This document shows, in pieces, positions 5,251-18,004 of a stretch of 30,634 nucleotides of DNA. The stretch is from an uncultured Lachnospiraceae bacterium. GTDB taxonomy: Bacteria; Bacillota_A; Clostridia; Lachnospirales; Lachnospiraceae. Made by a program: the position numbers and the translations under genes. Numbering within the stretch: the stretch's first letter is position 1; each line of letters begins with the position of its first letter. The notes under the pieces are model-generated. The model made no database searches and was not told the DNA's origin. It saw only the letters and a program-made list of their open reading frames with translations. The stretch covers positions 1 through 30,634 of the forward strand of contig CANOBT010000059.1 in NCBI GenBank assembly GCA_947564305.1. The letters are read 5' to 3'.

Positions 5251-5334
5251 AGAAGAAACAACCGCCCACAAGGGGTTGGCCATTTAGGATAGGATTACCA
5301 CCCGCAACTAGCCAAAGTTTTTAGGGTGGTTTTT
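5251..5334 (+). ncRNA. Antisense RNA 1, candidate antitoxin of a type I locus
   Basis: Predicted transcript of about 84 nt from the promoter at 5216-5244 to an intrinsic terminator (stem 5297-5303 with 5324-5330, inner AACT/AGTT pairing, then TTTTT). It is complementary to the 3' untranslated part of the mRNA for the 31-aa peptide on the opposite strand and stops just before that gene's stop codon. Convergent overlap at the 3' end is the usual arrangement of type I antitoxins of Gram-positive bacteria (TxpA/RatA, BsrG/SR4). Existence is inferred from promoter and terminator only. Confidence 0.6.
5258..5279 (-). terminator. Likely terminator of mini-toxin 1 mRNA
   Basis: On the minus strand CCAACC and GGTTG flank a short GC-rich loop and are followed by TTTCTT. 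The stem is only 5 bp plus a possible two-pair extension. The antisense terminator hairpin (5297-5330) could also slow transcription in this direction. Confidence 0.4.
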
Positions 5335-5344
5335 CTATGTATAG

Positions 5345-5440
5345 CTACTTACAAAATGTAAAAATGAATGTAAGCAACGCCAAAAGGAATATGCCAAAAG
5401 TCAGCAAATCCTTAAAATCAAAATTATTCTGATTTTTCAT
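5345..5440 (-). CDS. 31-aa hydrophobic peptide, candidate type I toxin
   Basis: A 31-codon frame that starts MKNQNNFDFKDLLTFG, continues as a Leu/Phe/Ile-rich membrane segment (residues 12-29) and ends Cys-Lys-stop. GGGGGTGAT lies 3 nt before the ATG. Size, one transmembrane helix, charged ends and the antisense RNA fit the holin-like/TxpA-like membrane toxins of type I systems, although the sequence is not the usual MTxYE form seen at 9305. It has its own promoter (5504-5532) and sits alone between the lipoprotein and plsC. Toxicity is inferred; it could instead be a small membrane regulator. Confidence 0.65.
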   Translation of the reverse strand: MKNQNNFDFKDLLTFGIFLLALLTFIFTFCK

Positions 5441-5503
5441 AGCATCACCCCCATTCTCCAAGAATGAGGCCAACACACCCCGCAACACGGTTGTTCTTTA
5501 CTT

Positions 5504-5532
5504 ATCATAACATATCATGCTGCTTCTCTCAA
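5504..5532 (-). promoter_or_regulatory. Promoter of mini-toxin 1
   Basis: Minus strand TTGAGA (5532-5527), 17-bp spacer, TATGAT (5509-5504) with TG one base upstream of the -10. Predicted start near 5497 gives a leader of about 57 nt that begins with the inverted-repeat arm. Confidence 0.65.
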
Positions 5533-16383: not shown

Positions 16384-16545
16384 ATGAAACGTTATGTATG
16401 TGAACCTTGCGGATATGTTTATGATCCAGAAGTTGGAGACCCGGACAACGGAATCGAAGCCGGTACTGCTTTTGAAGACCTGCCGGAAGATTGGGTATGC
16501 CCGGTCTGCGGACTTGGAAAAGAGGAGTTCGTAGAAGAGGAGTAA
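16384..16545 (+). CDS. Rubredoxin
   Basis: 53-aa iron protein. Two Cys-x-x-Cys pairs, VCEPCGY (C6, C9) and VCPVCG (C39, C42), hold one iron. The conserved core [14 protein letters not shown] and the WVCP motif are present, and the tail is acidic. It carries single electrons in the cytoplasm, in anaerobes often to oxygen- or peroxide-reducing enzymes. AGGAGG (16370-16375) precedes the ATG by 8 nt. It is monocistronic as far as visible; no partner oxidoreductase is adjacent, and the antisense promoter of mini-locus 3 starts 32 nt after its stop. Confidence 0.97.
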
Positions 16546-16576
16546 TTATTTTACAATAATTATTTTAATATCAAAG

Positions 16577-16605
16577 TTGACATTTTCCTTATCGTCGCAT
16601 ATAAT
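16577..16605 (+). promoter_or_regulatory. Consensus promoter of antisense RNA 3
   Basis: TTGACA (16577-16582), exactly 17 bp, TATAAT (16600-16605): a perfect sigma-A consensus promoter. Confidence 0.8.
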
Positions 16606-16611
16606 AGACAT

Positions 16612-16706
16612 AAGAAAGCACTGCAACAAGCGGTTGGCTTTTGTGTAGGTCATTTGATAGTAACTTAAACAACCGTCACTGAGCAGAGTGGCGGTTGTTG
16701 CTTTTT
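16612..16706 (+). ncRNA. Antisense RNA 3, candidate antitoxin
   Basis: Predicted RNA of about 95 nt from the perfect promoter at 16577-16605 to a strong terminator (13-bp stem 16668-16680 with 16687-16699, one G-U, then GCTTTTT). The terminator hairpin contains the stop codon of the 25-aa peptide gene on the opposite strand, so the RNA overlaps the last third of the coding region as well as the 3' untranslated part. There is no plus-strand frame with a ribosome site inside it. Confidence 0.7.
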
Positions 16707-16805
16707 ACAATTATCGTAATCGTGTATTTCCCGATATGTAATGTAATACGCATATGCTTCACCCCCTTTCGAGGGATTAGCCAACCGCCTGACGCTATGC
16801 AGTGC
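16618..16805. repeat. Outer inverted repeat of mini-locus 3
   Basis: Arms 16618-16639 and 16779-16805 share two exact 10-bp blocks as inverted copies (AAGCACTGCA, beginning 2 nt outside the arm, and GCGGTTGGCT), separated by 4 and 9 nt. The 5' ends of the antisense RNA and of the peptide mRNA leader are therefore near-identical. Confidence 0.75.
16676..16753 (-). CDS. 25-aa peptide of unrecognised family, candidate type I toxin
   Basis: A 25-codon frame beginning MRITLHIGKYTITIIVK and ending in a polar SNNRHSAQ tail. The alternating polar/hydrophobic pattern suggests a beta-strand or amphipathic peptide rather than the long Leu/Ile helix of holin-like toxins. The strong site AGGGGGTG lies 6 nt before the ATG. 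It has a near-consensus promoter (16831-16859), a leader of about 70 nt and an antisense RNA entering its 3' end. I prefer this frame to a longer 64-codon frame on the same strand, because that one would start with a TTG inside the -35 hexamer and has no ribosome site. I do not recognise a named family with certainty; toxin function is inferred from architecture. Confidence 0.6.
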   Translation of the reverse strand: MRITLHIGKYTITIIVKSNNRHSAQ

Positions 16806-16825
16806 TTCCTGTCCTGTAAAGGACT
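16755..16825 (-). promoter_or_regulatory. Structured leader of the 25-aa peptide mRNA
   Basis: The predicted mRNA start near 16824 is followed by a 5' hairpin GTCCT-TTAC-AGGAC (about 16808-16821), then the inverted-repeat arm, then CCCT-CGAA-AGGG, which ties up the ribosome site just before the ATG. Both 5' hairpin and masked site recur in the other mini-loci. Confidence 0.5.
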
Positions 16826-16830
16826 TTTTT

Positions 16831-16859
16831 ATTGTATCAATGGACTTACTTTCTGTCAA
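16831..16859 (-). promoter_or_regulatory. Promoter of the 25-aa peptide mRNA
   Basis: Minus strand TTGACA (16859-16854), 17-bp spacer, TACAAT (16836-16831): one mismatch from the sigma-A consensus. Confidence 0.75.
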
Positions 16860-16897
16860 TCACACTTCCCGAATATTTTCCCCACAATATTTGTTAC

Positions 16898-18004
16898 TCA
16901 TCTCCTCCGATACACATAATTCCCCGCCACAACCAGGAGGCTCACCACCAACAAAAAATAGAAGCTGATTCCCCTCGTCACATACAAGGACGGCATCAGA
17001 TACCCTTTGGAAAACACCTGATAAAATACATGACAGTACATCAATTCCGTGATTCCCTGCGCCCCCGGCAGCGGAAGCATATCTACCGCGACAGATACGG
17101 ACGCCTGCAAAAGCAGGATTGTAAATAGATTGGTTCCCTGCTGAGAAAATCCAAAATACACCAAGCCTGTCAAAAGAAATACGCTGCACCTCTGCAAAAG
17201 TGTGACGACTGCCGCCACACATACACGACCCTTTTGTCCTGCCAGAAAATGCACCGCATCCCGATATCCGTCGATAAATCCGTTTATTTTTTCTTTCCGC
17301 TCTCCGGACGTCTTCAAAACCTTGATTCGAGTCAACAAATGTTCCACCCGTAAAATCAGCCCCCGCATCCTTTCCGGAGCCGCCATGAGCGCCAATAGTG
17401 CCACAATCAAAATAACGTGAAGCACAAGTCCCAACAGATATAGCTTAAAATATCCTTGTAAATACATCTTCAACGGTGCACGCCAGAAAATGAGCAGCAG
17501 CACTCCCACAACAGCCAATACAAACTTGAAGAGCAGTCCTACCGTCATCAGCACGACCGAGCTGTCTGCCAGAGAATTGCCGTCTTTTTTCATATAATAG
17601 AGCTGTACCGGCTGTCCTCCTGTAGAAGAAGGGGTGATTCCAGAATAGAAGAATCCGATAAACGAATAGGAAATACATTGCAATAAACCGCTGCTTTGAG
17701 GGTTTACCGCACGCAGCAGATACCAGATCATCCCTCCTTCCGCACACACAAAAAACAAAGCTGCCAAAATCATAAAGATCAGGCATGGAAATGATAACTG
17801 CATCAATGCCGCACGAATCTCTCCCCAATCCTGCCCATGCATCACCGTATAAAAGGTCAGGAACATAATCAGCAGGAACAAAGCCGCATTTCCAATATTC
17901 CGAAGGCATTTGTGCTTTTTCCCAGTACTCATAGTTTTATCAGCACTCCTCATTTTCTCAATACTCATTATTTTTTTAGCACTTGCAATTCTCTCAGTAC
18001 TCAT
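16898..18004 (-). CDS. UPF0104 / LPG-synthase-TM family membrane protein
   Basis: 368-aa protein with about eight membrane segments from residue 40 on. Two signature stretches of the lysylphosphatidylglycerol synthase TM (UPF0104, YbhN-like) family are present: TPSSTGGQPVQLYYM near residue 124 and LPLPGAQGITELMY near 312. The aminoacyl-transferase domain of MprF is absent, so lipid or lipid-linked sugar handling is more likely than lysyl-lipid synthesis. The first 33 residues form a charged extension made of a 12-residue repeat (MSTERIASAKKI, MSIEKMRSADKT, MSTGKK). GGAGG lies 6 nt before the first Met. The start overlaps the previous gene by 11 nt (ATGAGTACTGA), indicating coupled translation; a GT2 gene heads the cluster. 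Confidence 0.82.
   Translation of the reverse strand: MSTERIASAKKIMSIEKMRSADKTMSTGKKHKCLRNIGNAALFLLIMFLTFYTVMHGQDWGEIRAALMQLSFPCLIFMILAALFFVCAEGGMIWYLLRAVNPQSSGLLQCISYSFIGFFYSGITPSSTGGQPVQLYYMKKDGNSLADSSVVLMTVGLLFKFVLAVVGVLLLIFWRAPLKMYLQGYFKLYLLGLVLHVILIVALLALMAAPERMRGLILRVEHLLTRIKVLKTSGERKEKINGFIDGYRDAVHFLAGQKGRVCVAAVVTLLQRCSVFLLTGLVYFGFSQQGTNLFTILLLQASVSVAVDMLPLPGAQGITELMYCHVFYQVFSKGYLMPSLYVTRGISFYFLLVVSLLVVAGNYVYRRR
17915..18004 (-). repeat. 36-bp in-frame tandem repeat, about 2.5 copies
   Basis: Units begin ATGAGTACTGAGAGAAT, ATGAGTATTGAGAAAAT and ATGAGTACTGGGAAAAA at 36-nt steps (minus-strand starts 18004, 17968, 17932). Each begins with an in-frame ATG. It encodes the N-terminal extension of the UPF0104 protein. 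Confidence 0.75.

Follow-up and report, generated by a model that had tools for sequence, protein, structure and literature searches.

In the Fst/RNAII (par) system of Enterococcus, the toxin and antisense genes are convergent and have a common terminator, and direct repeats form the second complementary region. Pairing of the two RNAs is reported to start loop-loop (PMC6562991). In the bsrG/SR4 and bsrE/SR5 systems of Bacillus subtilis, the antitoxin is described as pairing with the 3' part of the toxin mRNA and as having the stronger promoter, and the mRNA as holding its Shine-Dalgarno site in a 4–5 bp hairpin and forming a helix termed P1; for bsrG, helix P1, the masked site and the stronger antitoxin promoter are reported in PMC6562991 and PMC7430163, with the sr4 promoter given as 6–10 times stronger than the bsrG promoter (PMC7430163). 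Loci like bsrG/SR4 but with other toxins are noted in other Bacillus species (PMC6562991), which provides a precedent for toxin exchange on a common chassis. For Helicobacter pylori, the aapA/IsoA system is reported to encode a short cationic peptide, AapA1 being a helix by NMR (PMC8309996), and to lock its full-length mRNA through a long-distance interaction between the 5' and 3' ends (PMC6733600).

The locus described here, from an uncultured Lachnospiraceae bacterium, is like bsrG/SR4 and bsrE/SR5 in the pairing of a more strongly promoted antitoxin with the 3' part of the mRNA, in its masked Shine-Dalgarno site and in its helix P1, all of them predicted features, whereas its peptide is unrelated and beta-patterned and its RNAs are of ~215 and ~95 nt rather than 294 and 180 nt. 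Judging by sequence, we consider it very probable that the chromosome carries here a type I toxin-antitoxin locus with the build of bsrG/SR4, its transcription and toxicity being predicted.

Within the window, which is the whole 30,634-nucleotide stretch of DNA that was analysed, the locus is flanked by a rubredoxin gene on one side and a gene with an LPG_synthase_TM domain on the other. On the plus strand, a promoter matching the consensus at 12 of 12 positions (TTGACA-17-TATAAT, 16577–16605) would drive a ~95-nt antisense RNA, the putative antitoxin (about 16612–16706, its start placed from the -10 box). This RNA begins with a 5' hairpin (16614–16642), the reverse complement of which would form the 3' end of the toxin mRNA, and stops at a putative one-way terminator of 13 pairs followed by GCTTTTT (16668–16699), with G·U on the antitoxin strand and C·A on the toxin strand. 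On the minus strand, a promoter with one mismatch to the consensus (TTGACA-17-TACAAT, 16831–16859, 11 of 12, with a 17-nt spacer and a TG ahead of the -10 box) would produce the toxin mRNA, the proposed full length of which is 16611–16824, with a presumed U-rich 3' end, UUUCUUA, at 16617–16611. Read along the minus strand, this mRNA would contain a 5' hairpin (GTCC..GGAC, GTCCTTTACAGGAC, 16811–16824), the 5' arm of the long-range helix P1 (AGGAAGCACTGC...GCGGTTGGCT, 16779–16810), a hairpin masking the Shine-Dalgarno site (CCCTC-GAAA-GGGGG, 16762–16775), the toxin frame of 25 codons (MRITLHIGKYTITIIVKSNNRHSAQ, 16753–16679, with its TGA at 16678–16676), the stop codon of which is overlapped by the antisense terminator, and the 3' arm of P1 (AGCCAACCGC...GCAGTGCTTTCT, 16613–16639). 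The predicted fold of 16606–16824 has an energy of −79.9 kcal/mol (z = −7.3, 200 shuffles), and that of the window mRNA includes P1 together with the hairpins at the 5' end and at the Shine-Dalgarno site.

A first-pass annotation of this DNA had correctly located both promoters, the elements of the ~95-nt RNA with its 13-pair terminator, the 5' hairpin, the masked Shine-Dalgarno site, the 25-codon frame and the position of the antisense terminator over the stop codon. One point is corrected, the toxin mRNA most likely running past the shared hairpin to about 16611, and the annotation contained neither the one-way terminator nor the 5'-3' helix of the mRNA nor a link to BsrG-like systems. Neither the locus nor its peptide matched an entry in Rfam, Pfam, NCBIfam or PHROGs, and an Rfam search of 16500–16900 up to E 10 gave chance-level matches only.

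Relatives, for which the same annotation had proposed a search, turned out to form a large family in gut Clostridia. The first were found by distant BLAST, at five sites within a Vescimonas plasmid record and a human-gut phage contig, and yielded the search pattern GCGGTTGGC-(gap)-GGRGGTGA-(gap)-ACCGCCA. This pattern matched at least 120 stretches in a species-genome collection and five in viral sequences; the pooled cores numbered at least 130 distinct ones, with the peptide motif in 111 of 130 among the matches listed, including one chance match (L107). The 19 of 130 pattern matches without the RH motif were left out, many of which (e.g. Streptomyces, Bradyrhizobium) look like chance, and L002, without the motif, was kept by name. 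The true matches come mostly from Lachnospiraceae and Oscillospiraceae, among the matches listed (80 titles), and the family has two types of peptide, MRITLHIG[KR]FTVTIIVKSNNRHSAK and MPITLTFHVFGxTITVRVKSNNRHSAK. A longer variant of ~40 aa, MRLTFHI..WTVTIIV..TSKKAK.., with a lysine-rich tail, occurs at L287, L290–L292, L294 and L295, all in one genome.

With a covariance model at E 1e-6, matches turned up in 53 of 200 genomes from the family to which an uncultured Oscillibacter belongs, in 11 of 200 from that of a Lachnospiraceae metagenome-assembled genome and in 7 of 398 drawn across the phylum, counts that include the centre genome and were obtained with a strict filter for large sets that loses some matches. 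Several copies per genome are common (in 20 genomes picked for having one), and copies are dispersed, sometimes tandem; in Vescimonas fastidiosa, an orphan antitoxin is followed by two near-identical complete copies in tandem (L001 1320–2030). No recurrent neighbour gene was found in the few loci looked at, the neighbours at the Vescimonas locus being LysR and nadE, and among 200 genomes sampled from a single family, the DNA matches listed span either the toxin-antitoxin part or the flanking gene, never both together.

Both promoters recur in the family. Among 103 related loci with full flanks (including the chance match L107, which was removed later), the antisense promoter scored on average 11.42 of 12, with 65 perfect, against 8.06 in shuffled flanks (one mononucleotide shuffle per flank), and the toxin promoter 9.62 against 7.69. 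The promoters in related loci are not due to chance. The antitoxin promoter is stronger than the toxin promoter in 80 of the 103 loci, equal in 18 and weaker in 5. By sequence, a predicted antisense gene with its own promoter and complementarity to the toxin mRNA is found in the window and in related loci. The antisense promoter is lost at L117 (score 6), where the frame extends past the usual stop, and at L211 (score 7), with L193 (score 9) a doubtful case; L117 and L193 were excluded by name from later sets, the antitoxin side being lost or doubtful, and L211 was removed for an antisense promoter below 9.

The frame is under purifying selection, judging from its codons. Over codons 2–17 of 45 distinct 25-aa frames, pN/pS is 0.154 and the entropies at codon positions 1–3 are 0.37, 0.23 and 1.28; the N-terminal part gives 0.32 in the 27-aa group and 0.42 in the 29-aa group, with the 26-, 28- and 20-aa frames (14 of 106) set aside. 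Homologous loci that keep the RNAs and lose the frame would have spoken against the first-pass annotation, which had also pointed to synonymous bias as a test; what is found is mostly the opposite. For the C-terminal codons, which lie inside the terminator stem, pN/pS is 0.85 with few synonymous changes, so that the RNA rather than the peptide seems to be constrained there.

In 91 of 94 distinct peptides, compared with 42 of 94 shuffles, the hydrophobic moment is larger at the strand angle of 170 degrees than at the helix angle of 100 degrees, which supports a strand-like (beta-patterned) peptide, as first proposed, by residue periodicity only. By contrast, strand periodicity occurs in 2 of 8 peptides of the Hol_Tox type and 1 of 5 of the KxC type described below, and mean hydrophobicity is 0.35 in the beta-type peptides versus 0.63 in the 8 Hol_Tox-type ones. 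In periodicity and hydrophobicity, the peptide is unlike the hydrophobic transmembrane helix that is usual, though not universal, among type I toxins. Against Pfam Hol_Tox (PF16935), the window peptide gave no match at E 1 and MRITLHIGRFTVTIIVKSNNRHSAK none at E 10; as to a resemblance to Fst, searches of Pfam and NCBIfam that did not single out an Fst model by name gave no hit at all for the window peptide. Residues 6–17 of the MPITLTFHVFG variant weakly match the YrzI family (PF09501 / TIGR02413; 14.6 and 14.8 bits, below the cut-offs of 23 and 47), which is a lead only, the window peptide itself having no such match. The titles and abstract beginnings of the literature searched contain no description of this peptide family, and six peptide-family strings do not occur in the literature text searched. 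The predicted peptide is new and beta-patterned, and none of the libraries searched has a name for its family.

The shared hairpin is predicted to fold differently on the two strands. In 94 of 110 loci it has exactly one C·A mismatch on the toxin strand and an unbroken stem on the antitoxin strand, the antitoxin stem being flawless in 101 of 110, and the C·A position is unpaired on the toxin strand in all 37 rows of the alignment. On average, the stem has −21.1 kcal/mol on the antitoxin strand versus −14.7 kcal/mol on the toxin strand, and it is stronger on the antitoxin strand at every locus (110/110). A TTTT tail follows in 82 of 110 cases on the antitoxin strand and 12 of 108 on the toxin strand, although only such unbroken runs differ, the mean T count over the 14 nt after the stem being 7.2 and 6.5. 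Departures from Watson-Crick pairing in the terminator comprise 1 G·U on the toxin strand and 46 A·C, 37 of the 46 in one conserved column, as expected if the terminator works in the antisense RNA. These features indicate that the shared hairpin is a one-way terminator, formed with G·U on the antisense strand and broken by a C·A mismatch on the toxin strand.

A type I pair in which the toxin mRNA instead ends at this hairpin, so that the overlap is the terminator only, as in Fst/RNAII, would fit the stability left on the toxin strand and the T counts being so close. Against this stand the conserved C·A mismatch and the rarity of TTTT tails on the toxin strand, and also the 3' arm of P1, which is situated past the hairpin and shows covariation with the 5' end of the mRNA, as described below; we therefore regard such an ending as quite unlikely. 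The locus also differs from Fst/RNAII in its peptide, and in that its repeats are inverted and pair within the mRNA.

Read-through of the shared hairpin, with the toxin mRNA ending at the antisense start, is probable. The end is placed there because the 5' domain of the antisense RNA, which forms a hairpin more stable than one shuffle of itself in 69 of 72 loci, reads on the toxin strand as a hairpin with a U-rich tail, the toxin-strand version being the weaker in 67 of 72; the antisense start is often A-rich (AAA in 57 of 72). Depending on this predicted 3' end, the overlap of the two RNAs would be ~95 nt, as against ~40 nt for an mRNA that stops at the shared hairpin.

The 3' end of the toxin mRNA probably closes a 22-pair helix, P1, with its own 5' end. 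Across 72 loci, the pairing between the 5' and 3' domains of the same locus averages −43.2 kcal/mol, versus −34.1 kcal/mol when domains are swapped between loci (minimum −36.1 in 2000 permutations, which do not control for relatedness). In alignment A2 (alignments A2–A4 hold 37 of the 72 loci, with 35 left out), all 12 outer pairs of P1 show compensatory changes on both sides, and 97 cells are compensated, against 27.0 ± 5.5 when shuffled and at most 37 with slid partners, a control that keeps relatedness; 92.2% of cells are paired, and the inner 10 pairs are almost invariant, the last excepted. Departures from Watson-Crick pairing in P1 are G·U on the toxin strand in 51 cells and A·C in 9, with other mismatches in 54, which is what a helix acting in the toxin mRNA rather than in the DNA or the antisense RNA would give. 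The Shine-Dalgarno hairpin is paired in 85.4% of cells, with changes one-sided in 4 of its 5 pairs. RNAalifold on a short version of the mRNA missed P1 because the 3' arm was absent from that alignment. As in aapA/IsoA, a short cationic peptide would go together with a full-length mRNA locked by a 5'-3' interaction, but there the long-distance pairing is reported to hide the Shine-Dalgarno site, which here would be done by the local hairpin.

The pairing of the mRNA with its own 3' end also explains the matched 5' ends of the two RNAs, which at a given locus start with the same ~10-nt box (own score 10.3 versus 6.3). This shared box was considered as a common ligand site or a trans kissing contact and rejected, direct complementarity between the two 5' domains being only weakly locus-specific (rank 28.0 versus 35.5). 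At the DNA level, there is an inverted repeat whose two arms, one at each transcription start, match within a locus, and with copies of the locus dispersed and sometimes tandem, this could suggest a small mobile element with terminal inverted repeats, in which the promoters and complementary ends would be features of the element and the frame incidental. Such an element is highly improbable in our view: the frame is under purifying selection, and a function in the DNA does not explain why departures within the repeat are so much more often G·U than A·C on the toxin strand.

A toxin-antitoxin pair that decays is predicted to lose its toxin and keep its antitoxin. Two models, R2 for the toxin part and R3 for the antitoxin, were run separately on 40 genomes, drawn from 64 with covariance matches in two sampled families and hence chosen for having hits. 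They gave 93 toxin and 101 antitoxin matches, which form 80 pairs within 40 nt, the promoters of the paired loci not being checked one by one. For 12 of the 13 unpaired toxins, an antisense promoter scoring 11 or 12 of 12 is present and had escaped the model search (three of these, L296–L298, carry KxC-type peptides), and the other, L286, is without one and has lost the terminator stem, its frame being two codons longer. The 21 unpaired antitoxins include three opposite an intact toxin that belongs to a different type (L307, L312, L313), two that face a divergent frame of the beta type, seen by eye (L305, L310), and one cut by a contig end (L301). The remaining 15 face no intact toxin gene, as judged by a frame scan that recovers 71 of 73 intact loci, and often a stub of the last toxin codons is left; among them, L279 has an 18-codon frame with the N-terminal half lost and L314 an unrelated frame, both judged not intact by eye, and at L300 the frame is kept while leader and ribosome site are lost.

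Antitoxins without an intact toxin (15/100) are thus far more frequent than toxins without an antitoxin promoter (1/93; Fisher p 0.00035), where orphan promoters score 9 to 12 of 12, with four of the 15 at 9, several loci were classified by eye, and two pairs that share flanks (L282 and L302; L308 and L309) are not independent. This direction of decay gives the predicted toxicity indirect support only. Outside this comparison, toxin frames without an antitoxin promoter occur in the 103-locus set at L211, L117 and perhaps L193. Orphan antitoxins with promoters of 9–12 of 12 were seen at L276–L280, L282–L285, L299, L300, L302–L304, L306, L308, L309, L311, L314, L315 and L001 1320–1450. In one of them, L311, the C·A mismatch is lost and the terminator stem is now perfect on both strands, as expected, in this single case, if the mismatch serves the toxin mRNA only. 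Orphan antitoxins could protect against related toxins in trans.

A small peptide that is controlled by antisense RNA but is not a toxin, such as a competence or membrane-stress regulator, for which antitoxin loss would be harmless, would follow the same RNA logic as far as the sequence goes. It would also suit the intact frames with a lost antitoxin promoter (L211, L286), as well as two of the Hol_Tox-type peptides on the same chassis that weakly match the competence inhibitor ComI of NCBIfam (27.6 and 17.8 bits, below the cut-off of 55). However, a harmless peptide does not predict that antitoxins outlive toxins in decayed loci, and the copies are multiple, scattered and tied to no single neighbourhood in the cases looked at; we consider a non-toxin unlikely. 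The type I toxin-antitoxin reading that the first-pass annotation had put forward is supported instead, its named parts recurring across the family.

The same RNA chassis is found with other peptides. A leader scan of viral contigs yielded loci with the same leader and terminator but different peptides. Those with putative holin-like toxins of the Hol_Tox type (PF16935; 3 of 5 tested above cut-off) share with the window locus the leader GGCGGTTGGC, the masked Shine-Dalgarno site, the ACCGCC terminator arm at the stop codon and P1-like pairing, but their peptides are more hydrophobic and without strand periodicity, and the window peptide has no Pfam match. Additionally, KxC-type peptides, often ending KAC or KVC, occur on this leader and terminator; helical peptides of this type, ending KAC, KVC or NAC, some with R, were seen at L008, L040, L090, L296, L297, L298, L307 and L313, and that of L008, the sole one tested, had no match in Pfam, PHROGs or NCBIfam. 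In all 10 Hol_Tox and KxC loci analysed, the 5'-3' pairing is −36.7 to −56.2 kcal/mol, as computed without a swapped control, and the antitoxin-strand terminator is the stronger in 9 of 10, a result favoured by choosing the stem on antitoxin-strand energy.

Two of eight such contigs score above the Rfam gathering score for BsrG (RF01412) at the locus (L057, 70.2 bits; L091, 74.6 bits; cut-off 55), while two further pattern-found contigs, L274 and L275, had no Rfam BsrG match, nor did RF01412 match the window locus or three other sources with beta-type loci. By score, the window locus is a member of neither RF01412 nor Hol_Tox. Since the Hol_Tox and KxC sister loci share the leader and the P1-like pairing, and two of them match BsrG, the predicted RNA architecture is that of bsrG/SR4-type systems, and by analogy the window locus would work like bsrG/SR4.

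The window itself holds a second toxin-antitoxin-like locus on the minus strand (5252–5532), with a promoter TTGAGA-17-TATGAT, a masked GGGGGTGA site and a helical-looking 31-aa peptide, MKNQNNFDFKDLLTFGIFLLALLTFIFTFCK, that reaches 14.6 bits against Hol_Tox, below the cut-off of 23.3. An ACCACCC stem follows the stop codon, the 5'-3' pairing uses a different sequence, and the fold has z = −5.4; a scan of this locus for an antisense promoter gave none that passed.

Comparison between loci supports the promoters, the frame, the P1 helix, the strand-specific hairpins and the orphan antitoxins, and suggests how the window locus may work. Transcription from the strong plus-strand promoter would give an excess of the ~95-nt antisense antitoxin, which stops at the one-way terminator. 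From the weaker minus-strand promoter, the toxin mRNA would pass the shared hairpin, owing to the C·A mismatch and the usual lack of a four-U run on the toxin strand, and would end at the antisense start site. The finished mRNA would be closed by the 5'-3' helix P1 with its Shine-Dalgarno site in the local hairpin, and little peptide would be made because of these two structures. The antitoxin would be complementary to the entire 3' part of this mRNA, comprising the last codons, the terminator and the 3' arm of P1, and its pairing may open P1 and mark the mRNA for decay by RNase III, a route that we infer. Were the antitoxin lost, the stable mRNA would eventually be translated into the cationic, beta-patterned 25-aa peptide, which we infer to be toxic, probably at the membrane.

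We see an even balance for and against a broader reading, in which these loci would be the first type I toxin class of beta-strand peptides, placed on a common bsrG-like chassis on which at least three unrelated peptides have been swapped, with the RNAs kept apart by a wobble code. That code, part of the same evenly balanced reading, would consist of G·U where a helix must form and A·C where it must not, giving a one-way terminator and a self-locking mRNA. If this is true, the strand-specific G·U and A·C pattern would serve as a computational test of which of two overlapping RNAs uses a helix, and would explain how one hairpin halts one polymerase and lets the other pass. Similarly, orphan antitoxins would provide a sequence-based test of toxicity for other candidate families. 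For the bacteria themselves, it would mean that a widespread class of toxin-antitoxin loci, unnamed in the libraries searched and with a peptide unlike known type I toxins, is present in major gut bacteria.
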